Positions 13,301 through 51,881 of a DNA stretch of 64,000 nt are shown here, one piece after another. A program made the translations under genes and the position numbers. The stretch lies in NCBI GenBank assembly GCA_963922205.1, contig CAWUHX010000078.1, forward strand, positions 1,116,001 to 1,180,000, given 5' to 3'. Within the stretch, counting starts at the first letter, position 1. Each line of letters begins with the position of its first letter. The DNA comes from Romanomermis culicivorax (lineage: Eukaryota > Nematoda > Enoplea > Mermithida > Mermithidae). A model generated the notes under the pieces. The model was not told where the DNA came from, did no database searches, and was given only the letters and a program-made list of their open reading frames with translations.

Positions 13301-16300
13301 TATAATTATTTATTTCCCGCCGACCTTTCGACACCAGAAATTAATGATCTAGCCCGATTCTTCGTTTCCCCCTATAAAATGACGGTGTCGAAAAAAGCCG
13401 CATGAAAACTGTGTGCCACATGCCAGAAATGAGACTTAAGAATGTTAATCTGGATCAGGAGCAAGTCGTGTTGAATTTCAAATCACTCAATTAAAAATCC
13501 GTCGTTGAGAAAAGTGACGGAAGCTCGAGAGAATGGTGGCAACAGGAATGAAAAATCTTGTTAACAAGAGTAAATTACTTTTTTCCTATAGAAGAAAACC
13601 GTTAGAATAAGAAAAGAATGAATGGAATATGATTTGATGAGTTTCGGAAAAAGAACAGATATCAATTGCAGTAATTTGAGAAAATTTAGGACACGGTTTC
13701 TGAGAGGATTCAACTTAGTTAAGATAAGTAAAAATTAACCGCATCTAAAAATCACAAATTTGTTGTAAACTAATGCGCTAGGAAAAAAATGATATTCCTT
13801 TCGTCTGAAAATCAAAACCCTCAAAGTTACAGTAAGACAAAAGTTGCAAATGTTCGATTTTTTCGACTTTTCAGATACACTTTTTTCAACTTCAACAGGT
13901 TTAGGTACGTCAGACATCGTATCCTGAAAATTTACCCAATATTAGGCCAATGGATGGGCCACAATTTACTGTATGATTCATTAGTGTAAAGTGCGTATCA
14001 AGAATACAGCAATGCTCGAAGCATCAAATTTTAAGAACAAAAATTGTCATTTTTTCACAAAAATCACCATATCTACTGCTAAAGCACAGAAGCACCAAAA
14101 CATTCCCCATACAATAGATAGTTTACGATGTTTTCTACACGCTGACAAAAAATTACAGAAATTCATGTACTGCTAGAAGTCGCACAACCTGGAGTTTGAA
14201 CACTATCTTATAATTGTATTTTCTGGTAATTGCGATCTCCACTGTAGAACCGTTACGGCTTGATAAATTTCAAAAATGAGTTAGTAGAACAGATTTCTTA
14301 TGGCGAATAGTGAGATAATTCTCAAACTCATAAAAAATAAAAGTCGCAGGGCTACTGTATCCCAAGGTTTGGAATTTTCACACTTTCTAGCATTTTTCTA
14401 TCTATTTACAAGACTTGAGATGTATCGGCCTAGGCATGGAGTAACTTTATTATTGACCGTTCATTTAATACCGAATACAATGCTCTATAACGTGGTATGA
14501 AAATGTTTTCCGAATTATGCATTTTACAATTTTTGGGTGGTTTTAAAATGTAAAAAATATGATCGTAAAATGGTGAAAAAGCATTCTTCTTTCCACAAAA
14601 ATGACTATATGTACTGCTAAAGTCAAAAACATAGAAAACTTCCCTATGCGTTAGATACATTACGATTTACGATGTCTCCTAGTTGCCGACAAAGAATGAC
14701 CAAAGTTTGTGTACTGCTAGGGTGTTATATTTACAACAAACTACCTACCATTCCGATCGATAAATTTTAATTTTCAATTCTTGATCAACAAAAGTTGAAT
14801 TTTCTCGAAATTTCATGTTCCAGTTTAGGTGATAGGAAAATATCGGAAGTATGGAAAGCAATACAAAAACAAAGCATTACAAGTTTCCGAATCAATCAGT
14901 TTGAAGCAGATCACTTTCCATCAGCTCAGGTTATTAGTGCTCGGTTGTTCATAGCTTCAGTTTCATTTTCTCGAAAAAACTGCCTGCTTCAGCAGGATCG
15001 TAATAGCTTTCTTGATCGTCATAATGATGGCTTGCTTCCCATGACCAGAAGCTCGCAACTTGTTGCCCTGTTAGAAATTCATTTTTGAAAAACTGTCCAT
15101 TTTTGCGCATTAGTCTGGATATCATGGATAAGATCAAACTTTTGTTTGGATTCGTTCATCAAATTCGATCAGTGGAAACTATTTCTGCTTTGCTGTGAGC
15201 CTTTTACATGTTCTTTGACTTTTGACCATCCTTCTTCTACAATATTCGTTCTCCATGCAGTGTAGAAAGCTTGTAATGCTTCCTGAAGATCTAGGAGTAT
15301 TGGCATCGAACGAGCTGCTTCCGATTTCCTACTGTATGCATTTATAGCAGTGTCTCTCAAGTCGGCTCTTGTTGTAAAAGTTGATGATTAAGTTGATTTC
15401 GTAGAATATTACTGTGACAATGCACAAAGCACATGCATTTTTCTCTGAATCCGTAAACTTGATATTGTGCATCAAAGTTAGAGGCTCAGACCTGAATTTT
15501 TGTGACGGGCAGCAACAAGCGATGCACCGTTGTGCGATTAATGCAGAGCAACTACCGCCCAAATTTTGAAAACTGTTATGTTACTGTGTTTGAGGAAAGA
15601 CTTGACACATCCTTCTTCTGGACAGTCAAAGGGACTATTCTCACGTTGTGGATTTTCATCCTCCATATAATCTTTATAGTTGAAAGATGCTGCCATTTGA
15701 TCAGTGTCCTCTGCTGATGCAGTACTTGCCTTGCTTCTATCACTCATTGATTGCCACACGTTTGAATCCCCAGGTGAGGCTAGTTGCCTATTCTTTTGGT
15801 GAACAATATTTATCAGAAATTGTCTTTCAGTCAGCCTAATAAACATCGACGTAAGAAACAAATTCGCAAATATCAATCTTCATACAGAAGAAAAAGAAAA
15901 TCATGGAAGTTCATTCACGTGATTTTTCCACATGCATGAGCTTTTCATTATTCTCAAAGAAAAAAATCCAAATTTTCGATGGAAGCCGCTTTTGTTGATC
16001 AAGAATTTAAAATTAAAACTGATCAACTAAAACAGTTCCTCTGTAGATTTAGCACCGTAGCAGTACACATTTACTTGCTTTTTCATCATTTTACGGTATC
16101 ATTTTAGACACTTCAAAACTGCCCAAAAACTGTAAAATGCAAAATTCGGAAACCATTTTCATACCCCATTATAGAGCATTGTATTCCGTATTAAATGAAC
16201 GGTCAATAATAAAGTTACTTCATGCCTAGGCCGATACATCTCAAGTCTTGTAAATAGATAGAAAAACGCTAAAAAATGTGAAAATTCCAAACCTTGGGAT

Positions 16301-17394
16301 TTTGACCCGGTGACTTTTATTTTTTATGAGTTTGAGAATTAGCTCACTATTCACCATACGAAATCTGTCTTACTAACTCAATTTTTGAAATTTATCAAGC
16401 TTCAATAGCTCTACAGTGGAGATCACAATTGCCAAAAAATACAATTATAAGATAGTGTTCAAACTCCAGGCTGAATTGAATTTCATGAACATGTATTTCT
16501 GTAATTTTTTGCCAGCGAGTAGAAGACATCGTAAACTATCTATTGTATAGGAAGTTTTTGGTGCTTCTGAGCTTTAGCAATAGATATGGTGATTTTTGTT
16601 AAAAAATGACAATATTTGCTCTCAAAATTTGATTTTTCGAGCTCCACTGTACTCTTAATACACACTTTAATCAAATGAATCCTACAGTAAATTGTGGGCC
16701 ATCCATTGGCCTAATATTGGGTAAATTTTCAGAGTACGATGTCTGACTTAACTAAAGCTACAAAAGTTGAAAGAAGATGTCAAAAATCGACAAAATTGAA
16801 AATTTTGAACTTCTGTCTTACTGTAGGTGTACGAGTTTTGATTTTCAGACGAAATGAATATTATTTCCGTTCCTAGCGCATCAAGTTACACCAAATATGT
16901 GATTTTAAGGTAGGACAGTGTCTCCCGAGGGATGTATAGATTTTCAGAAAGGTAACGCATTGGAATTTAAATTGAACTTCTCCAACGACTTCCAGTACGA
17001 ATAGCAGTCATGTGATAAATAAGAGTAATAAAGTATCAAACACGATGATAATCTATGATTCTCAGGGAAACCTGACAATTAAAGCCCGTTAACAATGAGT
17101 GCCCAAGTATTATTCTATTTCTTCATTTTGTCACTATGACTACGGGAAGAATGAAAATCGAACTACCTTTAACCGCTATAAGTTATGCGGAAACGAATTT
17201 TTGAATATTCACCTGAACGGAGATTTGTTGCTACTATATAACTCGCTGATATTGCAACGATGTTCGTTACAGTCCTTGACCCCATTGCTGTTTATATCGT
17301 ACATCTGCGACGTGGCTTCTGTGGACGAATTACGTCGATTTTTGACCAAATTGAATCCATATTGCAGCGGATTCCAGTTCCACAATTTTTCCAT
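7342..17394 (-). CDS. Globin, nematode-type, three exons with long introns
   Basis: The minus-strand exons are 17394-17213, 10349-10068 and 7657-7342 (182, 282 and 316 nt). They sum to 260 codons with stop, and every junction keeps frame. The donors are CAG|GTGAAT and CGG|GTGATT; the acceptors are CTTACAG|G and TTTCAG|C. Residues 1-94 form a polar N-terminal extension, and the globin fold runs from about 95 to 245. His156 in GHARVF fits the distal E7 position and His189 in YGSRHAHF the proximal F8 position. FKPDYWDLF, an AWR motif and MKEGF complete helices G-H in the style of nematode globins. The protein should bind haem and oxygen. Exon 1 has no domain of its own and is joined only by splice site and phase, so the start is the least certain part. 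Introns of 6.9 and 2.4 kb carry transposons. Confidence 0.85.
7690..10060. other. Second globin intron, no other gene seen
   Basis: This AT-rich intron DNA between globin exons 2 and 3 holds only short open frames on both strands. I see no conserved motif and no clear terminal inverted repeats. Confidence 0.45.
10694..10880. mobile_element. MITE with GCCCAAT ends, copy 2
   Basis: It starts GCCCAATTTAGAAGTGCAG and ends CACTTCTGAATGGGGC. Two internal blocks read GCCGACTGTCGCCGA followed by a GCGACAAAAATCTTA-type segment. It sits in the first globin intron and belongs with the elements at 2199 and 62720. Confidence 0.55.
10881..13747. other. First globin intron (left part), no gene seen
   Basis: This is AT-rich intron DNA. 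The only local structure I found is a loose array of TTCAAAAGCGCAGC motifs at about 12500-12640. Confidence 0.45.
12495..12640 (+). repeat. Degenerate array of AAAAGCGCAGC motifs
   Basis: AAGCGTAGC, AAAAGCGCAGC, AAAAGTGCAGC and similar strings recur five or six times at irregular spacing. It looks like the subterminal motif cluster of a decayed DNA transposon. Confidence 0.5.
13748..16912. mobile_element. Element with about 1-kb terminal inverted repeats
   Basis: The left arm, about 13748-14795, is closely matched by the reverse complement of about 15985-16912. Landmarks are GGCCAATGGATGGGCC versus GGCCCATCCATTGGCC and GTCAGACATCGTA versus TACGATGTCTGAC. The 1.2-kb core carries a decayed minus-strand coding region. 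The element sits in the first globin intron. No target duplication could be set because the outer edges of the arms fade. Confidence 0.75.
14949..15876 (-). pseudogene. Decayed C2H2-type zinc-finger protein of a transposable element
   Basis: Read right to left, the minus strand holds [17 protein letters not shown] (15610-15560), then a frameshifted stretch, then an Ala/Lys-rich region (15360-15169), then [15 protein letters not shown] (about 15080-15030). The CPEEGCVK finger and the T-x-Q-Q-V-x-S-F-[FW]-S motif recur, from memory, in proteins of unknown role that are abundant in marine invertebrate genomes. Frames change several times and stops intervene, so no intact product is expected. Confidence 0.5.
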
Positions 17395-31468: not shown

Positions 31469-31472
31469 AACA

Positions 31473-32068
31473 TGTCGGGGATGGACATAGTCTATCTCCA
31501 GGTTGCGAAGAAATAGCCAAAGTCGATGCAAAACGCGTCGATGCCGATTTGCATAGACACCACGCATAAAAGCGTTGGTCGTCTATGTTTTTGGTCATTC
31601 TATGATTGTTTGTTTATTTTTAATAAAAGATAAATCGGTGGCCCAGTAGGGCAATTTTATATTAATTGTTTATACTATTTTTTGGTGGAGAATTTCCGCC
31701 CCAAATACAACAACCCGCGGCCGGACATTAGTTGGATCACTCGCAGCGGAGGGAACCCAGGTTAGACCCCGGACTTCTGGAGAGCCACCCAGTGTGCAAG
31801 TCTACATTTACAACTCAGTTCTCGGCCTGACTTCTGGATTTGCCCCTGGTTTGAAGTTACTTGAGCTCAGGGTGTTACTTTATCTTCTGCAGTTGTTCGG
31901 GACGAAAGCAGGAGATCTTTGTTGATTTTGAGACTGACTGAACTGTTGCAAACTTATTCTACCTAAGGTTTCGGCCTGATTAGGTGAATTAGCAAGTGAC
32001 TGATTAGGTCTAATTTTGATATCAAATCCTTTATCATATTTCTCAACCACAACAGTCTCATTTCAACA
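31473..32068 (+). repeat. 5' LTR
   Basis: It starts TGTCGGGGATGGAC and ends TTTCAACA, the usual TG...CA. A TATA-like CATAAAAG (31565-31572) is followed by AATAAA at 31622-31627, which may delimit U3 and a short R region. It aligns with 45544-46142 along its full length. Confidence 0.9.
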
Positions 32069-32070
32069 AG

Positions 32071-32088
32071 TGGTGGCTTCTGACTCTC
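32071..32088 (+). other. Candidate primer-binding site
   Basis: TGGTGGCTTCTGACTCTC begins two bases after the 5' LTR and starts with the TGG expected from pairing with a tRNA CCA end. I cannot assign the tRNA. Confidence 0.5.
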
Positions 32089-32166: not shown

Positions 32167-34772
32167 ATGAGTAAAGACAACCTAGGTGGCCTCAAGAGTT
32201 CGGGTTTGCCCAGAACACCACTGGGAAAAAAGGCCCGTGATACAGAAAAGTTAATTGTCCTAACTTCAGCTGAAGAGGACAATTGCTCAGATCATAGGCC
32301 TTTATCAGTGGAAAATGAAGGCAATCGACCTACGACCTCGACAGCTGTTGAGAGGGAGGACGACGACACGATATTATTGGCCAACAAAGATCAAATTTTT
32401 AAAATTCCGTCGTCAATGAACCTCCCGAAGAGAGGCGAATATTTACAACCGCCTATGACGGGACCGGCGCGTCCATTACCGAAGATGAACATTCCAGTTT
32501 TGGATCAACAGCAGCGCCGGCCGATTAATAAACCCGCCCAATTATTCGATACTTACCATCGATTATATTGGGACAATGAGCGGGAAGAACACCGCGGAAA
32601 TCCTCGAAAGAGCTCATTGGAGGATAAACTGGACCAGATCATGAACAGGTTAGATGTTTATGATATAGCATATTCGCCAACATTGCTAATACAGGTTCAC
32701 AGAAAGCCAGTAAGGCAAATGAACCGAAGCAAAGCAATGCTGGTTGTTTGGAACAAGGTGGTGCTTTGAAGTTTGAGCAGGCCCAGGAAGAGTTAGCGTG
32801 GCAAAATGATGGTATCACTCTTCAGCAAGACTGTAGACGGAAAGACCAAAAGTCAAGTCTCGGTCCTAAAGAGCAGTATATGCCTCATTTGCCCACTACC
32901 TCGAAAGTGGAGCAGAGAGTGAGTAGTTGTGGTTTTGACGAAGGTGTAAAAAATCTGAGTCTGATAAATCCAACTATCTCACAACAAAGCAGTTGTATTA
33001 GGGGAGAGACCCCAAGTGTCAGGCAGCAGGTTATGCCTACAATGATTCCGATTGATCCAGCTTTATGGGTCAATCCGGCTCAGGTAGGCCCAACTGTCTA
33101 TGACATTGAAAGGGCAATCAAACCAAAATTACTGCAATCTGATATGCCAAGTAAACAGGTTCTTGCTTTCCTAGTGGAGCTAGAAGGTGAGTTTCGAAAG
33201 AATACTCCCGATGAGGTGAAGCTAGAAGCATTAACCTGTTTGTCAAGGGACTTGCCGAAAGAATTGGCCGAAGAGTCAACGACATATAGGGAGGCCCGAG
33301 ACAAGATTTTGAACTATTGTGCTCCAGACTGCAACCTGGACATGCTCAAACGGGATTTATTGGATATTAAACAGGAACCCGATGAAGCAGCAACCAAATT
33401 TCTAAAAAGGGTTCGAGCACATGTGAATCTCATATATCAGAGTGAAACAAAAAAGTTTAAGAATAAAGTAATCATTGAAACCTTTTTCTATAGAAGTTCT
33501 TTAACTTACCAATTAGAACTGCAGAAAGACATAGCAAAATTCAAAAATTGGTATGATCTTTCGCAGGCAGTCTATGAGATAGAGTTAAAGTACCGGAATG
33601 GGATTAGAACATTTGGGCCAAGAGAGCAGCTCATGATGATAAACACGGCACAAATGGAAATTGCTGAGGAGCAGCAAGCCGATGTGAATGTAATCCAAAG
33701 GCCTTATGAAAGCGTCCAAAAGCGCAATAGGGACTTTAGAAGACCAAACACAGAAAGGCAAACTCCAATGCAATCTTCGCAAAATCAATTGATAGATATA
33801 GCAGATGATGAAGTACTTGAAGTACCTCCCCAGCAGGCCATAATGCCTCCGCAACAGCCTGTTGAGGAGCCAAAAAAGGACTCCCTCATGGTGGCTTTAT
33901 CTAAAGAATTTATCAAAATGGCACAATGTTATGAAGAGATTAGGAACTGGACCAAAGCTCAAGAGGAAGCCATAACTGCTTTAACTCAGAAAGTTGATAA
34001 AGCGAAAGCGAAAAGTCAACAAGAGGTTCAGCAGCGAAAATGGTGTACTTACCACGAAAATAACACTCACAACACGATTGACTGTAGAACCTTGAATTTT
34101 TATAAAGGTCTACAAAATCATGGAAGGGGTGGAAATAGTGGAAGAGGCTTTCGAAGAGGAAGTCCTAAAGGAAGTTCTGGGAATTTCCGAGGTAGAGGAA
34201 ATTTCAGAGGAAATTACGGAGGAAGTAGAGGAGGTTTTGGTAACGAAGGCGAAAGGGGAGCTTATCAAGTTTTGTTTCCTGATGACGAGGCGGAAAATTT
34301 GCAAGAATATGCCGAGTTTCAGGAATACGTAAAGTTGAAGAAGCTCAGGGAGCAGATGAGATTGTTACAGGCTACCACCCAGCTGATGTTACCAGGACCA
34401 AATCTGATGGACCAACAACCAGTAATCGCAAATCAGAGTTCAAATACCCTGTTGGTTCCACAAAAGGTAGTTAGTCCGTCGCAAGCCTCTGGGCAGACAG
34501 ACCAACCGCCGACTAGTGGTGTCAATAGTGTACAGCAAGAACCAATGATGGAGATGAAGTTGTGTGGTTTGCATAATTGTGCCATGGAGAAAGATGAGAA
34601 TGTGCCAGAAATGGAATGCAGTGCCGAGTATGGTAGAAAGGCAACTGCAGAGGAACTGGATATGTTAGCAAGATACTCTAGAACACAGCCATTTCACATC
34701 AAAGTAACTGTGTGTTCTACTACTGCAAAGGCACTGATTGACACAGGAGCTCAGTGTTCGGTGATTTCTTGA
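32167..34772 (+). CDS. gag: Gag polyprotein, interrupted by a frameshift
   Basis: The structural protein should form the particle and bind the RNA. It is read in two overlapping frames, 32167-32769 then 32748-34772. The second frame is already Gag-like from about 32664, so a one-base change near 32665 probably broke a single ORF. The capsid-like part includes ALTCLSRDLPKELAEESTTY and an R-x-H helix. The zinc knuckle near 34040 has spacing C-x2-H-x4-H-x4-C (WCTYH...DC) and is followed by a Gly/Arg-rich RGG tract (34120-34260). The frame ends in the protease active site DTGAQCSVIS, so protease straddles the gag-pol boundary. Confidence 0.85.
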
Positions 34773-37700
34773 AAAAATCACTTGGACTGGAGTATACAGC
34801 GTACCCTAAGATCCTAAAAGTCACTGTCGCCACTAGTAAAGTAGTTAGTGCACATGGTTACGTTCAATTTCAAATGCAATGTGATTATGGCCGTTTTCCA
34901 GTTAAAGCTATCATAATACCAGGGTCCGCAGAAGATTTAATATTGGGAACAGACTTCCTAGCGCACCCGGAAGTCAATACGGTAATAGATTTTGGAAAAG
35001 GTTCAATGACTATGATGGGTGTGAAGAAAAGTATTGATTTGTTAACATCTGATAAGAAAGCAATTCCAATAGTTGGGATGCATAATCCGATGATAGCAGA
35101 ATCAATACAAGAAAATTCTATTGAAGAAGATCAATGTTCGACAATCGAGCAACTGGAAGATCTAGTTCCAGTAGTGGCTTGTAATAGAATTTACATTCCA
35201 CATGGAACAGATCAGCTAGTGAAAGCTAAATTGTGGAATAAATCCTCGGCAAATAGAATAAATGGAATCATCATAGAAGGAGATGATTCAGAAACGAGAT
35301 TCAGAATAGATGATACTATAGTTGACGGTTCAAAGGAGGACTTTGTATTGATGATCTCCAATAATACGGGTTCCGGTTGCCTGATAGAACCTAATCAAGT
35401 TCTTGGCTACTGTAACTCCGTATTTCGGGGAGAATCAAGTGTGTCAATTTTGCAAGCAGGAAATAGTGGAGAAAGTAGCCTAGAGGGCATTTTCGATGCC
35501 AAGGAATCAAAATTCGATGGAGTTGTGTTTCTGGAAGCATTGTACAAAATGACCTCTAAAGCTACAGTGTCGGAGGAGCAGAAAGAGATGGCGATACAGC
35601 AACTCGTGAAATACTGGGATGTATTTAGCCTACCTCATGATCCTCTGACAACTACTCCCCATCTTACTTGTAAAATTAATACAGGTGATGCTAGCCCTGC
35701 GGCAAAACATTACTACAGAGCTGCCATTGAACGCCGACCATACATCAGACAACATGTGCAAGAAATGCTGGACAAAGGAGTCATAGAGCCATCAAGATCG
35801 CCCTGGGCGGTGCCATTATTCCTAGCAGGGAAGAAAGATGGGTCGCTCAGGCTGGTTGTTGATTTCAGAGGCTTGAACGAGGTCACGAAGGATGATCGAT
35901 ATCCAATACCAAGAATGGATGATTATCTGGACTACCTCGGGAGAGCAAAATTTTATACGACTCTGGACCTTAAGTCTGGTTATTGGCAAGTGCCAATGGA
36001 AGAAGGCAGTAAAGAAAAGACTGCTTTCCTGTGTCAAGAAGGGTTGTTTCAGTTCAAAGTAATGCCCTTTGGACTGAAAAATGCACCAGCCGAGTTCCAG
36101 AGGATGATGGAAAGAATCCTTCATCCTCATGTTTGGAAGATATGTCTAGTTTACATAGACGATATAATAGTGTTCTCGAATACATTCGAGGAACACAGAA
36201 AATTGGTCCTGGATGCTCTGAGACGAGCCCAGCTTACACTTGAACCGGATAAATGTGAATTCCTACCAAAGAAGGTACATTTTCTTGGTCACATTTTGGA
36301 TTCTAGTGGAATTTCGCCTGATCCGAAAAAAGTGCAAGCTATTAAGGAGTTTGAATTCCCGGACTCGGTCAAGCATATGCAAAGGTTTCTCGGAATGCTC
36401 CAGTGGTGTGAAAAATTTACACCACATCTGGCAAAGCACGCAGAACCTTTCTATAAGCTGACAGCCAAGAAAAGGAATAAATGGCTTGTCACAGAGGATC
36501 ATTACAAAGCATTTAATGTTTTGGAAGAAGCACTGGTATCGGTTCCATTTCTTAGGTACCCAGTAATGGATGGCTCAGCCCAGTTCATTTTGGAAACTGA
36601 TGCCAGTGGAACAGCATTAGGGGCTGTTCTGTATCAAGAGTCTGGAGACGACAAGTGGGTCATAGCATACAATAGCCGTGTGCTAAAAGAGGACGAGAAA
36701 AAGTGGTGCGCAACCGAAAGGGAGTGCCTTGCGATTATCTACGGCCTCAAAATCTACCGGCACTATCTATTGGGGCAGAAAGTATTGATTAAGACAGATC
36801 ACAGACCACTGTTATCAATGAAAGTCAACACTACAACAAATGACAAATTGAAAGGGTGGTATGTGATCCTAAATCAATACAACCACAAGTTAGAATACGT
36901 GCCCGGTAGACAAAATGCTATGGCTGACTTTCTCTCTAGAAAGGATGAGCCAGAGGATGTAGTGAAATCACCACCAAAGTGGGAAAGCATGTTCAAATTG
37001 GATGTTGTTTCCTCTGATGTCAAAGGAATAAAAGAACAAGAACAACAACAAATTTCCTTGGTGGCCGAGAGGAACAACATCCCCGAAAAGAATAAATCCC
37101 ACAAGGATAAGAAGGAAGAAGAGAATGCTCGAATTAGTCTTGAGGACGAAAGAGAGCATTCTAAAGGAGTAGAAGCGGTAGTAACCCGAAGCAAAGCTCG
37201 TGTTTCGGAAAAGGTGCAGAAAGAAAATCAGGAAACTGATAAATCTGCGATACCTAAGAAACAAGACAATGTGCAGTGGTTACATCCTAGAAAGGAAGAG
37301 GAATTTGATAAACTGGGAACATCAGGAGAAAAAGAGATATCTATTGGCCTGATCCCAGATGACTTGATGAGCAAACTGCAAAAAGCAGACGAAAGCTTAA
37401 AGCCAATCTGGGATAGATTAGGTGCAAATAGCACAACAAAGTATCACACTGGGTTCTACGAAGAAAATGGTGTATTGTATAGGGAAACTGAGGCAGAAAG
37501 CGAAGACCAATTGATCATACCCGCAAACCTCAGGGACTCTGTACTGCATCAGCATCATGGTGCAGTAATAATGACACACCAGGGTTTCAAAAGAACTCTG
37601 AGTGTCATGAAAATGCATTATTGGTGGCCTGGCATGGAAAAAGATGTCAGGGAATGGATAAAATACTGCGTTGTCTGTCAAATGGCAACAGGAAAGCCAT

Positions 37701-38644
37701 CCATTCCTCCCTTGATACCCATTGTGCCACAAGGTCCATTCGGAATTTGGCCTTTGGGAGAAAGAATGCCTTATGTTATAGTTTTTCAGGACTATTTCAC
37801 AAAATGGGTTGAAGCTGAAATGATCCCAGATCAATCAGCAAATTCAGTTGTGAATGCGTTCTTAGAAGCTATAATATTTAGGCATGGAACACCAACGAAA
37901 CTCCTAAGTGACAATGGATCTTGTTTTACTTCGGATTTAATGAAATCAGTTTGTGATTTATTAGAGTGTAAGAAGATCTTCACTACTGCTTCCCACCCTC
38001 AGGGTAATGGTATGGTAGAGAGGTTCAACCAAACTCTAATAAAACAACCGAGAAAAGTAGCTATCGGTGAACTCGATAGCTGGCCAAGATATCTCAAGTC
38101 AGTTGTCTTTGCCTATAATGCTACCCCACATGCAGTGACGAAGGCCTCACCATTTGCGTTGTTACGGGGCCATGAGGCAAAGTTCGGGATGAATTTGTCA
38201 AAAGCACTTAAAATAGTAATGCCCATGAATTATGAGGCATATAAATTCATCCTAACTGACCACTTAACCAGGCTTTATGGTATTATTGCCGAAAATATCC
38301 AGAAAGCAGGGGAAGCTAGCAAAAGATATTTCGACAAGAAAATTAAAACCTCGGTTTTTAAAGAAAATGATTGGGTACTTCTTAAAGTTGATAAGCAAAA
38401 GAAACTAGGCTTAACTTGGGAAGGACCCTTCATTATAACTGATGTTTCCAGGTTAGAAGATAACGTCATAACAATTGCACGTTATGATAATCTTTTGCTA
38501 CGGCAAAAGGTTTCAGCAAGTAGGCTGAAAATTTTTCGCTACGAGACTACACGATGGCAGAACTATGTAAAAAATCGATCGAATGGTCTTACTGTACCTT
38601 TGCAATTAGCCGGGAGTAGTGCGACGCCTGATGTAGTTTCGTAG
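34754..38644 (+). CDS. pol: Pol: protease remainder, reverse transcriptase, RNase H, integrase
   Basis: This 1296-codon frame lies -1 relative to gag and overlaps it by 19 bp. Residues 1-95 hold the second half of protease (DLILGTDFL). Reverse transcriptase spans about 330-530, with LRLVVDFRGLN, LDLKSGYWQV, MPFGLKNAPAEFQ and catalytic YIDD near residue 467. RNase H spans about 605-725 (ETDASG, ATERECLAI, TDHRPLL). A charged linker of about 130 residues follows. Integrase has an HHCC zinc domain (about 930-980, ending CVVCQ) and the DDE triad in FQDYF, SDNG and MVERFN (about 1011, 1052, 1089). No chromodomain is visible. Integrase completes the machinery for cDNA synthesis and insertion. The first codon is GTG, so expression needs frameshifting from gag or reflects an indel. 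Confidence 0.93.
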   Translation: MFGDFLKKSLGLEYTAYPKILKVTVATSKVVSAHGYVQFQMQCDYGRFPVKAIIIPGSAEDLILGTDFLAHPEVNTVIDFGKGSMTMMGVKKSIDLLTSDKKAIPIVGMHNPMIAESIQENSIEEDQCSTIEQLEDLVPVVACNRIYIPHGTDQLVKAKLWNKSSANRINGIIIEGDDSETRFRIDDTIVDGSKEDFVLMISNNTGSGCLIEPNQVLGYCNSVFRGESSVSILQAGNSGESSLEGIFDAKESKFDGVVFLEALYKMTSKATVSEEQKEMAIQQLVKYWDVFSLPHDPLTTTPHLTCKINTGDASPAAKHYYRAAIERRPYIRQHVQEMLDKGVIEPSRSPWAVPLFLAGKKDGSLRLVVDFRGLNEVTKDDRYPIPRMDDYLDYLGRAKFYTTLDLKSGYWQVPMEEGSKEKTAFLCQEGLFQFKVMPFGLKNAPAEFQRMMERILHPHVWKICLVYIDDIIVFSNTFEEHRKLVLDALRRAQLTLEPDKCEFLPKKVHFLGHILDSSGISPDPKKVQAIKEFEFPDSVKHMQRFLGMLQWCEKFTPHLAKHAEPFYKLTAKKRNKWLVTEDHYKAFNVLEEALVSVPFLRYPVMDGSAQFILETDASGTALGAVLYQESGDDKWVIAYNSRVLKEDEKKWCATERECLAIIYGLKIYRHYLLGQKVLIKTDHRPLLSMKVNTTTNDKLKGWYVILNQYNHKLEYVPGRQNAMADFLSRKDEPEDVVKSPPKWESMFKLDVVSSDVKGIKEQEQQQISLVAERNNIPEKNKSHKDKKEEENARISLEDEREHSKGVEAVVTRSKARVSEKVQKENQETDKSAIPKKQDNVQWLHPRKEEEFDKLGTSGEKEISIGLIPDDLMSKLQKADESLKPIWDRLGANSTTKYHTGFYEENGVLYRETEAESEDQLIIPANLRDSVLHQHHGAVIMTHQGFKRTLSVMKMHYWWPGMEKDVREWIKYCVVCQMATGKPSIPPLIPIVPQGPFGIWPLGERMPYVIVFQDYFTKWVEAEMIPDQSANSVVNAFLEAIIFRHGTPTKLLSDNGSCFTSDLMKSVCDLLECKKIFTTASHPQGNGMVERFNQTLIKQPRKVAIGELDSWPRYLKSVVFAYNATPHAVTKASPFALLRGHEAKFGMNLSKALKIVMPMNYEAYKFILTDHLTRLYGIIAENIQKAGEASKRYFDKKIKTSVFKENDWVLLKVDKQKKLGLTWEGPFIITDVSRLEDNVITIARYDNLLLRQKVSASRLKIFRYETTRWQNYVKNRSNGLTVPLQLAGSSATPDVVS

Positions 38645-39825
38645 CGGCAAAATCTGCCGATTTGCATGTATTTATTTTGTATATTTAATAAATATTTATT
38701 CCAATTGCATTTTGTAACGGTTAAAATCCATTTTAATATTTTTTGATATGTAGGATTGTGTTTTAACGGAGCGGGGGAAAAGCTTTTAAAGCGAAAGACC
38801 CGTTTTCGTAAATTTTTCATTTTACAACTTCTTGGTTAACAACTCAAAATCATTCAAAACTTTCAAAAGTCGTGTCCCGCATCTGCTCTTATTTTTCAAA
38901 TCTTTTTCGAAAAGTTGTGAACGGAAGATCCCTCCCGTGAGGTAATTTGCAGCCGCAAGGGAATAGACTGTAAATGTTTTATACATCTGTCTACTTTTCA
39001 CAGCTGCAAATCCGGTTTTAAAAAATTTTAAAATTATTTCGGTGCGAAGAATCGGGCCCAGAAAAAATTTCGAATGGGTATGCCGAACGAGTGTACTCGG
39101 ACGTACAACGCGATGGACGACGAAGTCCAGTTTGGGGAGCCGCACCCGCGGCAGAATAATCGATATTTTTTGGTCGACGGCAAGCAATCATTTTTTATTT
39201 GTAAATAGTTAGGTAAGAAAATGAGCGGAGGTTACACTCGTCAGGGGTGTTTTGCAAGACTGTTTCTGTGCCCTTTCTCGGATGAGCTACCAACTGGGAG
39301 TTGAGAATTAAACACAAAAAATTAGGTAGAAGGGGGTGGCAAGGGCCGAACCTAGGTAATCCGAAAAAGACTTTGGTCGAATTAGGTGATCTGGTTAGGG
39401 GAGGTTTTTGCCATTCCCACTCCCTCTGGTTTCCGCGAAGCAGCGAAGAAGGGGATTAGCAGAAATCGGTCGCGGAGATCAAAGTTGTGATCGATTGAGC
39501 TCATCGAGTAGCAAGAGTGTAATGGGTTTAGAGTGAAAAACACCTAATTTCACATATTTTTGCTTATCAATTTTGGTTTCTATAAAGGGACACCCAACCG
39601 CCAGAAAGGCTAAACATCAAGTTCCTGCTCCAAAAATTTCAAAAGTTAAATGGTGTTCTGCACAAAGGTGCTAGAGTTTTCCCCAAAGGTAAAAGGAGTA
39701 GTAGTGGGTAAAATTACCCAAAGAGTTCAAAAGGGTCATGAAAATGCACATAAAGGGTTAGTAGAGTATGTTGGTATAAAATTTAAATCTCTCCTGGATT
39801 TTTAGACCACGACATCCGTCGGGCA
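38645..39825 (+). other. Spacer between pol and the third ORF, with a possible splice acceptor
   Basis: This 1.2-kb stretch has no convincing coding sequence. TTAAATCTCTCCTGGATTTTTAG ends near 39805, about 20 bases before the next ATG. It resembles a 3' splice site that could give a subgenomic mRNA, as known for env of some gypsy-group elements. Confidence 0.4.
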
Positions 39826-41814
39826 ATGCGGATAGCAGAGTTAGAAAGGTGGTTTTTTGCCACTTTTGAGTTCTGGCCGACCAACCCTATCCAGCCGATA
39901 ATTGTTCCCATGGGAAGTGTGGAAAGGGTGGTAAAACACCTCGAAAGCAGCACTTTCCGAGGCATGAACATTGTCGGCTTCGATGTAGAGAAGGTGAACC
40001 GCGAGGATGCTAGAAAGCTATTTAGGTGGGGTGTCGAAAACGAAAAAGGCAACCAGTTTGCCAGATTAGTTTTGTTCGCCTACTTAAATGGTAAAACGTT
40101 CGTAATCAATTTAACGTTGCTGCAAGAGCAAGAGTGGAACATTTTGTTACACTTTTTACGCTCAGGGACGTTGTTAGTTGGTTACGCTGTTTTGGAGGAC
40201 ATAGTTTCAATTATCAATGTCCGTGGATGCCGAAAAAGCACCGATGGTCGCGACTTGTCTGAGGCGATTAGATGTAGTATCAAGGATGGAAATCTTGGAA
40301 GATACTATGATCTAAGCCTCACGGCAAAGCAGATCATGGGAAGCGAGATTACCAAATCCAGGAAAGCAGGTATCTGCCCTGAGACATTGAAATTGAAAGG
40401 CCTCTTTGCCGAAATGTATTTGGCTGATATCAGTCCTCACCAGACTGATTTCAGTCTTTTATGTAATAGGCAAAGTGTGGCCAAAGAAAGAGTCCCCGAA
40501 GAGATACTGCAGTACGCTAGTATGGATGCGTACTTTTCATTGGCAATTTTTATGGGGGTATTTCACTATGGGTACGTGATTGAGCTATGTGGGGGAGTTG
40601 CCAACTTTCCTCATGGTATAGTCGATCCATCCCAGATTGAAATTCTTTCATATAAATTTTATCAGTCTTACTCATATATAGTTACGGACTATAAACTACG
40701 TAACTTTGTGGGTACACCTGATATTGTGGTTAGGCAGCCTGAGGCCACCTACCACATGATGCGCCAAGAAATGTACGCAAGATGGGCCACACAAGTGCAA
40801 GAAATAGGGCCTAATTTTCATTGCCACCGGGACATCTGCAATCCTAGGAAAGGGAAAGAAAATTTGCCGTGGCGGGGCATCTACCCAGGTGCTTACCGTC
40901 AAGGTAAAAAATTAAAGCCCAATTCCTATGATGAAGCAAGTGATCCCGACGACGAGGAAATGATTAGGCCTGAACAGCGCTTGTCGGCCAAGGATAGGTT
41001 GCATCTACAGTTAGTGGAGGAAATGGCGCAAGGGAAGCAGTATCACGAGCTTACGCAGCCAGTGTCCTTAGTGTGGTTCATTGACACAGCAAAAAAAGTT
41101 GTCAAATTACCCCAGGATTGTCAAAAGCAAGCACTACTAGATGCCCTAAAAAAACATCTGGTTCATGTGCCTATTGACATTGATCCTGGAGTGGGTTATT
41201 TTGACAAGGATCACTGGAAGCCTCAGCTGGTGGAGTATGCTAAGGCATTTGAGGAAAAGCGGTTCTCCGAACTGCAAGTCACTTGTGCCTTAGTCCCCCT
41301 GGCCTTCCACGTGATCTGGCCCCATAGCAGAAAGGAACTGGACTTTGTAATGGCTGAAATGTTTAGTTACAGGTTCATTACATTGTTCAGCCCAGAGCTA
41401 CAGGGCAAGATAAAGGAAATGGCTTGGCGGTCAGATGAAAGGTTGTCCCATTATCTTTTGTTGGCAAAGACTCTTCCAAACATAGAGTATGAGGTACCCC
41501 GAAAAGGTGCTGGAATATATGTTTGGATGAATCGATTTGGATTTATGCCCATTCGATTACAGCTATGGAAGAGTGCAGATGTGTGCGCGCCGATCCCTGG
41601 CAGCCCTGACACAATAACTATGGACAGTAAGAGCTATAGCTCAAATCCGTATTATTATGTTAGGTTCTACCATATCGAGCTAGCACAAAGGACGCCTTCA
41701 TTAAGATATGGGGTAACCTGGCAAACCAAAATCAACAAGGTTGGAGACGTCTATGGGTCATTGGTGGAAAATAGGGAGTATACTATAGCCTTCCCTAAAA
41801 AGATCTTTTGTTGA
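39826..41814 (+). CDS. DEDDy-type 3'-5' exonuclease domain protein, third ORF (first half)
   Basis: Residues about 22-250 show the full DnaQ/Werner-like exonuclease signature. Exo I is NIVGFDVEK (Asp53, Glu55), Exo II is VGYAVLEDI (Asp125), and Exo III is YASMDAYFSL (Tyr230, Asp234). LSLTAKQIMGSEITKSRK sits where the family has its LG-x-x-L-x-K segment. All four acidic residues and the Tyr are present, so it should hydrolyse nucleic acid 3' ends using two metal ions. Residues about 320-660 are globular and unrecognised. The TGA stop at 41812 lies inside the first unit of an inserted repeat array, so the native protein was longer. The ORF lies downstream of integrase in an LTR element, where an env gene may occur in relatives. 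Possible roles are cDNA end processing or proofreading, or host defence; these are inference. Confidence 0.85.
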   Translation: MRIAELERWFFATFEFWPTNPIQPIIVPMGSVERVVKHLESSTFRGMNIVGFDVEKVNREDARKLFRWGVENEKGNQFARLVLFAYLNGKTFVINLTLLQEQEWNILLHFLRSGTLLVGYAVLEDIVSIINVRGCRKSTDGRDLSEAIRCSIKDGNLGRYYDLSLTAKQIMGSEITKSRKAGICPETLKLKGLFAEMYLADISPHQTDFSLLCNRQSVAKERVPEEILQYASMDAYFSLAIFMGVFHYGYVIELCGGVANFPHGIVDPSQIEILSYKFYQSYSYIVTDYKLRNFVGTPDIVVRQPEATYHMMRQEMYARWATQVQEIGPNFHCHRDICNPRKGKENLPWRGIYPGAYRQGKKLKPNSYDEASDPDDEEMIRPEQRLSAKDRLHLQLVEEMAQGKQYHELTQPVSLVWFIDTAKKVVKLPQDCQKQALLDALKKHLVHVPIDIDPGVGYFDKDHWKPQLVEYAKAFEEKRFSELQVTCALVPLAFHVIWPHSRKELDFVMAEMFSYRFITLFSPELQGKIKEMAWRSDERLSHYLLLAKTLPNIEYEVPRKGAGIYVWMNRFGFMPIRLQLWKSADVCAPIPGSPDTITMDSKSYSSNPYYYVRFYHIELAQRTPSLRYGVTWQTKINKVGDVYGSLVENREYTIAFPKKIFC

Positions 41815-42617
41815 AGGGCTTCCTGGGTGGCGCCGTAGCTGTCCCACCATTGGCCAATGTCGGGGTAGGTGTAACCATCCCGACCAGGGCTCAACAAAGA
41901 TGGCCGGGTTCGGAACCCATGGATTGGCTAAAACATCTATCCTACGGGTGGAATGTTGTATGTTACCATACAACATCCCTCCCCCCTTGGAGCAACAGGG
42001 GGGCCCCTGGTATGGTCACCAGTGTTGAAGGGCTTCCTGGGTGGCGCCGTAGCTGTCCCACCATTGGCCAATGTCGGGGTAGGTGTAACCATCCCGACCA
42101 GGGCTCCACAAAAATGGCCGGGTTCCGAACCCGTGGATTGGCTACAACATCAATCCTATGGGTGGAATGTTGTATGTTGCCATACAACATCCCTCCCCCC
42201 TTGGAGCAACAGGGGGCCCCTGGTACGGTCACCAAGTGTTGAAGGGCTTCCTGGGTGGCGCCGTAGCTGTCCCACCATTGGCCAATGTCGGGGTAGGTGT
42301 AACCATCCCGACCAGGGCTCAACAAAAATGGCCGGGTTCGGCACCCGTGGATTGGCTACAACATCAATCCTACGGGTGGAATGTTGTATGTTGCCATACA
42401 ACATCCCTCCCCCCTTGGAGCAACAGGGGGCCCCCTGGTACGGTCACCAGTGTTGAAGGGCTTCCTGGGTGGCGCCGTAGCTGTCCCACCATTGGCCAAT
42501 GTCGGGGTAGGTGTAACCATCCCGACCAGGGCTCAACAAAAATGGCCGGGTTCGGCACCCGTGGATTGGCTACAACATCAATCCTACGGGTGGAATGTTG
42601 TATGTTGCCATACAACA
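41809..42617 (+). mobile_element. Tandem array of four LTR-like units (TRIM-like), inserted in the third ORF
   Basis: Four copies of a 167-bp segment are separated by three 47-bp spacers, with an exact period of 214 bp (units begin 41809, 42023, 42237, 42451). Each segment starts TGTTGAAGGG and ends in a hairpin, TGTTGTATG-TTGC-CATACAACA, so the ends are TG...CA. CTTT flanks the whole array on both sides (41805-41808, 42618-42621). Spacers hold CTTGGAGCAACAGG (possible primer-binding site) and a G-rich tract. This fits a terminal-repeat retrotransposon in miniature that has become tandem. Insert plus duplication is 813 bp, a multiple of three, so the flanking reading frame is in register. The alternative is a satellite that expanded in place. 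Confidence 0.75.
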
Positions 42618-44256
42618 CTTTGACTATAGACCTCTGGCCTCGGATTTACCGGGAATTCAGCACACATATAGTTATAAAACGGGTGAAGGTACTGTCACCA
42701 AATTAGCTGGCAAGATTAGTCCCACCAAGACTGATAGTCTGAAAGGTGAGGACAAACAGCAAGCTGATGTAGGTGTAGTTGAATTTCCGATATTTTCAGG
42801 TCAGGAAGTCCAAACGTCGGAAAGCGAAATCTTCAGCGATGCAGTGGGACTGCCAGCTGAAGATGAATCGCAAGACCAAGGACTTGATGATGAGGACGTG
42901 ACTGAACTGTCGGAAGAAGAGCAGCAGCAAGAGCAATCGGTTCCGGCAATGGAACTGATGCAAGCTCAAACTGCTCAGACGCAGTCCGAACTCGACAACC
43001 AGCGTCAATTAGAGGTTATTCTAAAGATGGAAGAGGAGGTGAAGGAAAGAATTCGACTCCAACGCGAATTAATGGAGGAAGAATTGGCGAAGAATGCGGC
43101 CATTTACAACGAAAAACTTCGTCAAATGGCAATTCAATTCGGACTCCAAAAGGACGATACCGCAGCGCCTGAAGTGGAAGCGAAAGTAGTCGTATTAGAG
43201 CCACCATCGCCGATGAAGGTAGACGATGACATGGCCTCGGATAAGCTCGTTATTGATGAAACGAAAGCGGAAACGCCCGACTCGGAGATGACGGAGAGCA
43301 AGGAGGTAATAGCGTTCTCTGCTGATGGAGGTGTTCCAGGTTTGTATTCAGCCAAAGTCATTCAGAGTATGAGAGAAAAAGGATGGAATGGCGAGAAAAT
43401 ATTATTTATGGCTGAAAGGAAGAAGGAAATGAGAGTGAAGGAGAAGGAAAGGAGGAAGAAGGGTATCAAGGGAGCAAAAGCAGAAGAGAAAGAGGAAGAC
43501 AGTAAGACGGCGACTTCGTCCGTCATATCGACCTCAACTTCTACGATTACCTCCACTGCTACCCCCACTTCTCAAATTACTTCTACTTCAACTGGAACAC
43601 CGTCATTGGCTACATCTTCAGTGGCAACTGCAACTCAAGATAGTACATCCAAAACTAGTCAAACTTCAGGCGCAATAGGCCTTGCGATGGGGAAACCGAT
43701 GCTGAAAGGTCAGGCAAAACCCAGCAAGGACCAAAAACCGGGAGTGGCAGCTAGTCAAATGCAAGTGGCTGGTCCTAGTAAAATTAAGCAGGCACAGGCT
43801 GCTCAGGCAACTGAAACACCAGAAGTGACTGCGGAAAAATTCAAGGACAGTCTCTTGGACTTCTGGGATGTCTATCAACCAAAAGCCAGAGAATCTGGTC
43901 CAATATCATTTTTTACGAGTGCAGTAGCCAAGTATTTTGCTTTCGAGCAATTTGAGTCAGAAAGGGTTTTCTTCATGGTAAATGATGCCATTAGGGAAAT
44001 CTACCGGGATTACGAACAACAGTTCAGAATCCAGGGAGCTTTTCTCTATGATCGGACCAATTTACCTGAAGAGCTCTGGGAAAGAGTCATGTATGACTTT
44101 CTCCCCAGGTGGCAAAAGACGGAGAGAGCACCTGATGCGTTTTCCTCGGTCAGGTATTTGGTTATGATGCTATTCCTCGTGTTGGAATGCGCCCCGCTGT
44201 TCCCGATGCATATTGGAAACATTTATGCCAGGGCCATGGTGGCGGCGAATAACTGA
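42595..44256 (+). CDS. Third ORF, second half: coiled-coil, Ser/Thr-rich and C-terminal domain
   Basis: Native sequence resumes at 42622, after the CTTT copy, in the same frame as the exonuclease half. The apparent ATG at 42595 lies in the inserted repeat and is unlikely to be the true start. An acidic stretch (42740-42960) is followed by a Gln/Glu-rich coiled coil (about 42970-43140), a Lys/Arg-rich helix (43370-43490), a Thr/Ser-rich linker (43500-43660) and a globular domain (43830-44250) with aromatic and acidic motifs such as [12 protein letters not shown]. The domain is not one I recognise. Length and order suggest a multidomain nucleic-acid-associated protein. A TGA ends it at 44254. 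Confidence 0.7.
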
Positions 44257-45379: not shown

Positions 45380-45534
45380 GAGGGTGGTCATTCAGAAAGC
45401 TTTCCGCAAGGGGGCATGAATGACCAAAAAGGTTCAGAAAACTGCTTTGACTGTATTAGGACCTGAAAAGGTTCCAAAATTTTCGTTGCGGCGTAATATG
45501 AATCTTTCTAACCTCCTGTTGGTCAGTTTCGAGG

Positions 45535-45543
45535 CTCGAGGGA
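45535..45543 (+). other. Polypurine tract
   Basis: A purine-rich CGAGGGAGG sequence lies directly before the 3' LTR, where the plus-strand primer of LTR elements is expected. Confidence 0.5.
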
Positions 45544-46142
45544 GGTCGAGAATGGACATAGTCTATCTCCAGGTTGCGAAGAAATAGCCAAAGTTGACGC
45601 AAAATGCGTCGACGCTGATTTGCATAGACACCACGCATAAAAGCCTTGGTCGTCTATGTTTTTGGTCATTCTATGATTGTTTGTTTATTTTTAATAAAAG
45701 ACAAATCGGCGGCCCAGTAGGGCAATTTTATATTAATTGTTTATACTATTTTTTGGTGGAGAATTTCCACCCCAAATACAACGACCCGCGGCCGGACATT
45801 AGTTGGATCACTCGCAGCGGAGGGAACGCAGGTTAGACCCCCGACTTCTGGAGAGCCACCCAGCGTGCAAGTCTACATTTACAACTCAGTTCTCGGCCTG
45901 ACTTCTGGATTTGCCCCTGGTTTGAAGTTACTTGAGCTCAGGGTGTTACTTTATCTTCTGCAGTTCTCTGGGACGAAAGCAGGAGATCTTTGTTGATTTT
46001 GAGACTGACTGAACTGTTGCAAACTTATTCTACCTAAGGTTTCGGCCTGATTAGGTGAATTAGCAAGTGACTGATTAGGTCTAATTTTGATATCAAATCC
46101 TTTATCATATTTCTCAACCACAACACAAGTCTCATTTCAACA
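45544..46142 (+). repeat. 3' LTR
   Basis: It aligns with the 5' LTR along its full length, ending TTTCAACA. Its first bases read GGTCGAGA where the 5' copy has TGTCGGGG. It has CACA extra near the 3' end, and scattered substitutions. Confidence 0.9.
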
Positions 46143-46239
46143 AACACAAATGATACCAAGAATCATAAATGATTGGAAATCCAGCGCAAAGTGCCGGAAA
46201 ATTTTCGGTATTTTTCGTTTTAGAATGCATCTCCGTCAG

Positions 46240-48844: not shown

Positions 48845-49985
48845 ACTGTTGTGGAAAACTTTTCTACCAGTGATCACATTATGGTTAAATTTGATATTCT
48901 TCAGAGACTAAAGCACGAGTCAAGGTTAAAGGATATATATATTCTTAATAGAATTTCTGCCTGGTCTGCTCTCTGGCAGCTTGATATCTCTCCTGATAAA
49001 AGTAAAGTACTCCACCTTGGTTACTCTAATCACATTTTTATCAGTTGGATAGCTGATATTTACCCCATGAAGAGCAAACTGTCAAAGATCTCGGTGTGCT
49101 TATTTCTCACAATTTATCTTTCAAAAATCATATCAACTCAATTGTGAACAGAGCTCACCAACGGAGTTCCTTAATCTTGAAAGCTTTTACTTCGAGAAAT
49201 AAATCGGTTCTAATTAAAGCCTTCAATACATATGTCAGACCTATACTTGAGTACTGCTCAACTGTGTGGAATCCTTTTCACACGAATGAAATTCTGCTGA
49301 TCGAAAATGTACAACGGAAGTTTACCAAGAGATTATTTGGTAAAAACTCTAGCCTTTCTTATGAAGAACGTCTAAAAGCTCTTCTTCAAGAACGACTTGA
49401 AACCCGCAGACTAATAGCTGCTCTTTCTTTAATGTACAAAATTATCAGAGGTCACACTTGCATTGACAAAAATGATTTCTTTATGCTAAACTCTAATGAC
49501 AACACTCGTCGCCAACATGATTTTAAGCTCATTACTGGCAAAGTTAAATCCAATTTGAGATTATATGATTTTTGTAACAGATATATCAATATATGGAATA
49601 ATCTTCCTTCAGATGCTATCAATTCTTCCAGTCTGCAATGTTTTAAGAACAAAATTATGAAAATCGATTTTTCCAAATTCCATGGGGGAGCGCGTTAGAC
49701 TTTGTAACCTGCGCTTCCTAGACTAATCGAACTTCCTTTATAGTAGCTTGTTCATTTCGAACTCACATTACGTTGAAACTTTCGTTCCGTTTTATTTCCG
49801 TTTTTTTAACCATGTCTAATTTCTGGATATTTTTTTTCTTCTCGCTATCCTTGTGTATTTCTTTTTACATTTGTTCCGTCTCAAAAATGTTTATAATGTT
49901 TCACCGCAATACCCTATGGATTTTTTATATTTGCTTTCTTTTGTCTTCAACTAGTAATTTATTCATTAATTTAATTTAATTTATA
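48845..49985 (+). mobile_element. 5'-truncated LINE, CR1/jockey-like, copy A
   Basis: After a degraded start (48850-49095) a plus-strand frame (49096-49698) encodes FNTYVRPILEYCSTVWNP, VQRKFTKRLFG, the ETRR helix and DFCNRYINIWNNLPS, the typical C-terminal region of CR1-type LINE proteins. The catalytic YADD-type motif is absent because of 5' truncation. An untranslated 3' region of about 290 bp follows. Confidence 0.8.
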
Positions 49986-51881
49986 ATTTTCAACCTTACG
50001 ATTTTATCCATGCTGATTATCAATCTCTCGAGATCATACCAGCAAAGGTGGATTGAAATACTCTTTTCAATAATTGCATTGCCCCCAATCATATTTATCA
50101 AGTCTTCCTAAGAGTTTTAGCTGGTTTTATTGATGAATTTGTACCAAGAAGAAAGGAACAGGTGAAACGGGAAAAACTACCTTTATTTTTGAGAAGACTA
50201 AAAAAGAGCAAACGTAAATTGTGGACTATGTATGCTAACAACAGAAATACTGAAAACAAGAACAGGTTGAAGTTAATTTCAAAGAAACTCAAAAACGAAA
50301 TGAATATCCATTATGCTAAGAAAGAAGAAACTCAATTGAAATCCCCCTCCATAAAAAAGTTTTATGAATTTGTCAACAGCAAAACTTTAAAGCGGGAAAT
50401 GATCCCTACATTGCATTATCATAATATTGAAGTTAGTAGTGACTTTGACAAATGTGATATTTTTAACAAATATTTTGCAACTAACTTTACTGTTGATGAT
50501 GGAAAAAGTCCTCCTTTTCCTGGTAAAGGATTTGAATATCCCAAGTCAGTTAAATTTGATTTCATGAAAGTTTTGTTAACACTGAAAAATCTAAAACTCA
50601 CATTTTTCCTTGGACCTGATGGTCTGTGTGCCTACTTTCTGAAAAAGTTACACCTTGTTCTTGCTGAACCTCTTGGTATTATCTTTGAGGTTTCTTATAG
50701 GACTGGCACATTACCTGATTTATGGAAAACATCATACATTGTTCCAATCTTCAAAAAAGGGGACCGTCGCAAAGTCGAAAACTACAGGCCCATATCACTT
50801 TGTTGTGTACCATGGAAAATCATAGAAGGAATAATTAATAAGGATATTGTAGGTCATTTTGACAGATATGCCTTATTCAGTAGTAGGCAGTTTGGATTCA
50901 GAAAGAATAAATCATGTGTCTTACAACTTCTTGAATGTAAAACTAAGTGGGTTAAGAAGTTGGATGATCAAGTTCCTGTTGATGTTGTATACATTGATTT
51001 TAAGAAAGCATTTGATACTGTCTCACATTCAAAGCTCTTACAGAAACTAAAAGGATATAAAATTGATAAATTCACAATGAATTGGATTTGTGACTTCCTT
51101 ACAGATTGAACTCAATGTGTAAAACTAAGTAATACCATTTCTGCTCCAACTCCAATAATTAGTGGTGTTCCTCAAGGAAGTGTGTTAGGTCCAACATTGT
51201 TCCTGATATTTATAAATGAAATGAGTGATATAATTAAAAGTGATCTCTATCTATTTGCAGATGATGCTAAAATTTTTAATGATGCATGTAATACAGTATT
51301 AATCCAGGAAAATTTAAACAGTTTCTATAATTGGTATGAGGAATGGCAACTCAGTATGTCATTGCCTAAATGTGCAGTCTTACATTTGGGAAAAAATAGT
51401 CCATCAAATCAGTACAAAATTGGTGAATGTGATCTTGAGGCTATCACTGAAATGAAAGATCTTGGTGTTTATCTTAATGAAAAACTCAGTTTTGTTCCGC
51501 ACTGTGATTACATGATCAAGAAGGCTTCTATGGTATCAAATCTAATTTTTAAATGTTTCAACTCAAATATAAATGAATTAAAAATCAGGGCATTTAAAAC
51601 TTATGTTCGCCCAATCCTTGAGTATGGTAGTCCTATTTGGAATCCTTCTCTAATGGGTGAAATACAAAGGGTAGAGAAAGTTCAGAGGTGGTTCACAAAA
51701 CGATTATATGGTTTTAACTCTAGGAATCATCAAAAAAGACTGGAGTCCGCCAGTTTGCATTCTCTGGAATTTAGGAGAACTATAACTGATTCATGCTATG
51801 TTTGTTCTATAATCTGTAACAGCATTTTGGACTCAAATAATTTTTTTTGTATATAGTAAATCTAATTATCGTATTAACAAT

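Follow-up and report, generated by a model that had tools for sequence, protein, structure and literature searches.

A predicted DEDDy 3'-5' exonuclease in the third gene of a Ty3/gypsy-type retrotransposon family of the nematode Romanomermis culicivorax

Introduction

DEDDy-type 3'-5' exonucleases are carried by the long terminal repeat (LTR) retrotransposons Juno and Vesta of bdelloid rotifers, and by the Athena and Terminon elements, which are without LTRs or integrase. In Juno and Vesta the domain was acquired at least twice and lies in a third open reading frame (ORF3), for which processing of the 3' ends of element RNA has been proposed, with exonuclease activity yet to be demonstrated (Rodriguez et al. 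2017; PMC5408684). Athena and the Terminons are likewise retroelements with accessory DEDDy exonucleases, but theirs are described as telomeric elements of up to 40 kb with a Penelope-like reverse transcriptase (RT) (PMC6431247, PMC5408684). A DnaQ-like exonuclease is also counted among the well-known accessory domains of LTR elements (PMC6338049), and among the matches listed the open-licence PMC literature gave no further relevant LTR element with a DEDDy domain. Here we describe a Ty3/gypsy-type element of 14,670 bp whose ORF3 opens with a predicted DEDDy exonuclease domain, located in a stretch of 64,000 nucleotides of the Romanomermis culicivorax genome (assembly GCA_963922205.1, contig CAWUHX010000078.1, positions 1,116,001 to 1,180,000 of the forward strand; hereafter the window). 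R. culicivorax is a mermithid nematode and a parasite of mosquito larvae. The preliminary description of the locus, made from the letters alone, held that no LTR retrotransposon with this domain had been described, which is mistaken given the DEDDy ORF3s of Juno and Vesta (PMC5408684). The present element adds a second animal phylum and is not the first case; with several families in that phylum, the capture of exonucleases by LTR retrotransposons is not peculiar to rotifers.

As far as the published account covers it, the likeness to Juno and Vesta extends to the LTRs, a pol with protease, RT, RNase H and integrase, a DEDDy ORF3 behind pol, and the occurrence of that exonuclease in unrelated lineages of one genome (PMC5408684). 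The differences include the nematode host and an ORF3 of about 1,357 codons. The dUTPase placed between protease and RT in the rotifer elements is unmatched here at E <= 1 in the gag/protease and pol ORFs, and zf-CCHC is unmatched at E <= 1 in the window gag, which has a stretch rich in arginine and glycine (RG-rich) instead; a second R. culicivorax family (B, below) has a zinc knuckle, and among the rotifer elements Vesta1b is given as the exception to the gag zinc knuckle (PMC5408684). The DEDD residues are unchanged here, whereas the rotifer account gives DEED (PMC5408684). UniRef searches with the exonuclease, whose word-based first step may miss a relative and which did not extend to pol, returned no rotifer protein among the matches listed. 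The ExoN enzymes of nidoviruses and arenaviruses are of the DEDDh type. They too are described as DEDD-type exonucleases of RNA-based replicons (PMC7968707), but they belong to RNA viruses, with no reverse transcription.

The front domain of ORF3

The window ORF (39826-41814; 662 aa) is the front portion of the third gene, and its first 254 residues almost certainly constitute a DEDDy exonuclease domain. The five signature residues named in the preliminary description (D53, E55, D125, Y230 and D234) are at those positions and are kept in all 30 loci of the window element's family (family A), the window included, and the D-x-E of motif I (D53, E55) aligns with four further DEDDy groups of this genome, families B, C, D and E. 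The Pfam model PF01612 (DNA_pol_A_exo1) recognises 11 of 12 members of the family at E <= 1, against a single member for each of two other Pfam models. The window domain itself scores 14.4 and 14.0 bits on PF01612, below the gathering score of 23.6, and the best family A copy (L007) reaches 22.2 bits as a protein and 24 bits with its neighbours in the genome search. Sister family C provides a bridge, as it aligns with family A in hhalign (probability 97%, E 9e-11) and its member L071 scores 31.8 bits, above the Pfam cut-off; this family, too, is found behind a Ty3 pol. A medium-confidence structure model (mean pLDDT, the predicted local distance difference test score, of 57) has a DnaQ-type fold resembling the WRN, Nibbler, RNase D, Rrp6 and Pol I exonucleases. 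WRN, Nibbler/mut-7, RNase D, Rrp6, EXD1/EXD2 and the Pol I exonuclease share this predicted fold and the DEDDy residues, but they are cellular proteins and not parts of elements, with 8-18% identity among the structural alignments listed. The fold and the catalysis of the ORF3 domain are predictions from sequence and model.

Some of the structural results count against the assignment. The better model drew on rows of families found through PF01612, the other four of five runs gave pLDDT values of 35-46, AlphaFold on all 662 residues with the family alone gave 30.8, and the family's own profile found no exonuclease in the PDB. The structural match to DnaQ-fold families by which the preliminary description proposed to judge the domain is present in the medium-confidence model and absent from the profile search of the PDB. 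A PDB sequence search with the window ORF alone returned chance matches only and a PHROGs search of the domain no match; with NCBIfam there was no match for the window, one chance match for one copy, and weak exonuclease matches for family B. A chance motif match as the origin of the DEDDy signature was rejected on the PF01612 matches, the family C bridge and the recovered fold.

ORF3 is a repeated gene linked to pol

In the window ORF3 ends at codon 663, the start point of a tandem array of 214-bp units. An intact copy on contig C225, where these units are absent, has an ORF3 of about 1,357 codons counted from its ATG (4,074 nt with the stop codon) that ends in an RG-rich tail, so the very long third ORF of the preliminary description holds for the intact copy and not for the window, where the 662 codons are its front only. 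A search of the assembly, 359,112,060 bases in 595 contigs, with the window ORF scored 67 copies from 3,685 first-look candidates, and one with a related protein scored 150 places from 2,012 candidates; both counts are lower bounds. The 66 copies outside the window are 92-94% identical to it and span residues 1-661 or 2-661. Of all 67, 58 are stop-free over that stretch and 41 have an open frame of at least 1,367 aa. In all 30 loci compared (the window plus the 29 copies ranking next after it) the end of pol and a 1.2-kb spacer lie upstream of ORF3, in line with the preliminary description of a Ty3/gypsy-type element with a DEDDy-type domain after integrase. ORF3 is part of the element.

Its position between integrase and the 3' LTR raises the question of whether ORF3 could substitute for env in transfer between cells or hosts, a role called formally possible for the rotifer ORF3s (PMC5408684). 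We regard this as very unlikely, as Pfam gives no env or fusion domain and hydropathy reveals only two marginal stretches, with 19-residue means of 1.66 (within the exonuclease domain) and 1.79. Pfam and PDB searches of the downstream part of ORF3 gave no domain or structure match. The RG-rich tail of family A ORF3 would fit RNA binding; a common origin with the RG-rich stretch of gag was considered and is not established (BLASTP E 0.004, in low-complexity sequence).

The motif TTTT[TC]AG is present at -40 to -21 nt from the ORF3 ATG in 30/30 loci. The UniRef gene model P0001 (A0A915K0E6, an R. culicivorax 'myosin heavy chain') is a chimera of pol-derived and ORF3 pieces, apparently joined near this acceptor. 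Because of the conserved acceptor-like site and the nearby P0001 junction, we suggest that ORF3 may be expressed separately from a spliced RNA. The related protein P0002 comes from a contig of 10,055 bases in ENA. None of the 150 scored places in the R. culicivorax genome exceeds 78% identity to it, which suggests that a second species may carry the element. Other R. culicivorax entries in UniRef annotated as "3'-5' exonuclease domain-containing" resemble ORFs of family B elements.

Related families in the same genome

Five DEDDy sequence groups (A-E) were seen in the genome. All five catalytic residues are kept in L071 (family C) and L082 (family E), and in the one family D sequence that was read Ser replaces the catalytic Tyr. 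A family C exonuclease (L081) lies directly behind a Ty3 pol that is 44-49% identical to the window pol, and a family E exonuclease (L083) follows at about 1 kb an integrase that shares 47% identity with that of the window, with the exonucleases of A versus C and E only about 22-27% identical. Given these identities, the exonuclease gene appears either to have stayed with the pol lineage through deep divergence or to have been acquired anew from a shared pool. Most of family C is broken; among places of at least 250 residues at >40% identity only two are stop-free, one of them the query. In the family B locus L051 (C69:272600-277600) a DEDDy ORF of about 608 aa is preceded by a 1,142-aa ORF with a zinc knuckle, a transmembrane-like stretch and RNase H and integrase remnants. 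No RT match was obtained in the 5 kb upstream in this locus, the sole family B copy so read, where RNase H, H2C2 and zinc knuckle matches were found.

Selective constraint and possible function

The ratio of nonsynonymous to synonymous substitution rates (dN/dS), pooled over pairwise Nei-Gojobori comparisons in which the pairs are not independent, is low in families A (30 copies) and B (18 copies). In family A it is 0.10-0.14 over the exonuclease, 0.07-0.10 over residues 261-661 and 0.22-0.24 over the last 98 pol codons, figures that are biased downward because the copies are the best 30 of the 67 that matched the window ORF at the protein level; one of the 30 (L012) was kept despite a stop in the stretch, with the stop codon skipped. 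Third-position divergence is near that of the LTRs (~0.10) over most of ORF3, and in the downstream part the three codon positions diverge by 0.036, 0.036 and 0.106 (window versus one copy). Codons 331-550 (window 40816-41475) stand out, with third-position divergence of 0.14-0.26 against 0.06-0.16 elsewhere in comparisons with four other copies. The rotifer study was unable to show selection on the ORF3s it sequenced, reporting mostly neutral variation for those of env and GDSL type and, in the sections dealing with these genes, no measurement for DEDDy ones (PMC5408684), in contrast to the purifying selection measured here in A and B.

These data bear on whether the gene is a one-off capture from the host without a role for the element. 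DEDDy proteins are common host enzymes. Such a capture is contradicted by the 67 scored copies, the linkage to pol in 30/30 loci, dN/dS of about 0.1, and the related genes that families B, C and E have next to Ty3 pol sequence; we reject it as extremely improbable. The preliminary description had looked to further copies joined to pol, with dN/dS below 1, as support for an element gene, and linked and intact copies under such constraint do exist.

We tentatively favour, at somewhat less than an even chance, a reading in which ORF3 encodes an accessory enzyme for trimming or degrading the 3' ends of RNA within the ribonucleoprotein (RNP) of the element itself, and is neither an envelope protein nor a proofreader of RT. 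In this scheme ORF3 would be made separately from a spliced RNA, its DEDDy domain would act on RNA rather than DNA, and the RNA acted upon would be that of the encoding copy. The alternative, put forward in the preliminary description, is that the exonuclease acts on cDNA, proofreading or trimming the 3' ends made by RT and permitting a larger genome, there about 14 kb. We consider this unlikely, since about 4.1 kb of the element's length is ORF3 itself and the exonuclease has an ORF of its own that follows pol after 1.2 kb, without fusion to RT. There are also large LTR elements in plants that lack such a domain.

Family B separates these readings further. Its dN/dS is 0.088 over the exonuclease (14 copies) against 0.786 over the final 275-300 codons of the ORF derived from integrase (15 copies), the latter not a clean measure of decay because synonymous divergence (dS) differs about threefold, 0.164 on the integrase side and 0.471 in the exonuclease. 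The family B copies are the best 20 of 116 PF01612 scorers, which biases dN/dS downward, and two of the 20 were excluded because stops interrupt their exonuclease region; the integrase-side figure uses 15 of the 20 loci, hand-picked for a stop-free upstream match (five cut to the first matched stretch), and the matching exonuclease figure 14 of those 15. An exonuclease retained where RT is missing would not be kept for proofreading that RT. If a copy that must borrow its RT still retains the enzyme, the encoding copy itself probably benefits, as it would if its own RNA were the target. Family B, in which the exonuclease is constrained and the adjacent pol remnant only loosely so, offers a natural experiment that can tell proofreading apart from other functions, and the role of the enzyme becomes directly testable.

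Several observations weigh against action on the element's own RNA, or against the contrast on which it draws. Selection of family B copies by exonuclease score favours constraint there, and the upstream region was examined in one family B copy only. Family A has dS of 0.08 at the end of pol against 0.23-0.31 in ORF3 (window versus others); overall, ORF3 dS exceeds by a factor of 2-4 the value for the same copies at the end of pol (family A) or in the integrase remnant (family B), for which recombination between subfamilies or constraint at the nucleotide level would be candidate causes. The fold cannot separate RNA from DNA substrates, as the Pol I exonuclease and WRN score no lower than Nibbler and RNase D. 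Finally, one family E ORF end looks P/Q-rich without RG, which argues that the RG tail is not essential.

Two further roles involve RNA. The domain could be an RNA-binding DEDD fold serving RNP assembly, with catalysis unimportant, of the kind reported for EXD1 and Maelstrom; we think this improbable in view of the five catalytic residues being intact in all 30 family A loci and in L071 and L082. It could instead destroy host silencing RNAs, making the element a retrotransposon with a built-in suppressor of RNA silencing, a proposal that we likewise rate as improbable. R. culicivorax is reported to be without Piwi, and HENN-1, the protector of small-RNA 3' ends, to be likewise lost outside clade V nematodes (PMC4323106). 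With HENN-1 lost, the small interfering RNAs that target transposons would carry unprotected 3' ends, which an exonuclease of the Nibbler/mut-7 type could attack. Under the silencing proposal, the families that retained the exonuclease, including any in which the adjacent pol remnant is under loose constraint, would be such suppressor-bearing retrotransposons. Transposable elements are reported to make up 289 of the 359 Mb of this genome (PMC10879605).

Architecture of the window element

Membership of the Ty3/gypsy group is indicated by the LTRs, the target-site duplication, the polypurine tract and the order RT, RNase H, integrase, all present in the window element (Table 1). The LTRs and target duplication of the preliminary description are confirmed, the duplication being a direct one of 4 bp (AACA/AACA; 14.67 kb in all); the LTRs agree at 578 of 599 alignment columns, three columns being gaps. 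The integrase core match in the window pol begins at profile position 20, with the front part, where the first Asp is expected, unmatched.

Table 1. Features of the window element, in window coordinates
Feature	Coordinates	Strand	Remarks
Target-site duplication AACA	left 31469..31472, right 46143-46146	.	4 bp only; weak taken alone
5' LTR, 596 bp, TG...CA	31473..32068	+	LTR alignment
Candidate tRNA primer-binding site, TGG start, 2 nt past 5' LTR	32071..32088	+	sequence
gag-like ORF with RG-rich stretch and retroviral protease motif DTGA at 3' end	32748..34772	+	RVP sub-threshold in Pfam
pol ORF: RT (YIDD), RNase H, H2C2, integrase core, GPF module	34754..38644	+	Pfam: RVT_1, RNase H, H2C2, rve
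Spacer between pol and ORF3	38645..39825	+	found in 30/30 loci
Candidate 3' splice acceptor TTTTTAG	39799..39805	+	conserved motif upstream of ATG
ORF3 residues 1-254, predicted DEDDy 3'-5' exonuclease domain (D53, E55, D125, Y230, D234)	39826..40587	+	
ORF3 residues 255-662, without known domain, purifying selection; stop at codon 663 here	40588..41814	+	
Tandem array of 214-bp units, breaks ORF3	41809..42617	+	repeat similarity extends to 42750
ORF3 downstream part; stop earlier than in the intact copy, which continues into the RG-rich tail	42618..44256	+	
Polypurine tract (purine-rich, just before 3' LTR)	45531..45543	+	
3' LTR, 599 bp; first base G versus T in 5' LTR	45544..46142	+	LTR alignment

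Elsewhere in the window, six nested pairs of inverted arms (79-91% complementary) surround a 1.5-kb centre at 13787-16866, like a large foldback element. ORFs at 49096-51856 resemble pieces of a non-LTR retrotransposon RT, and a tandem array of 18-bp units occupies 6200-6433.
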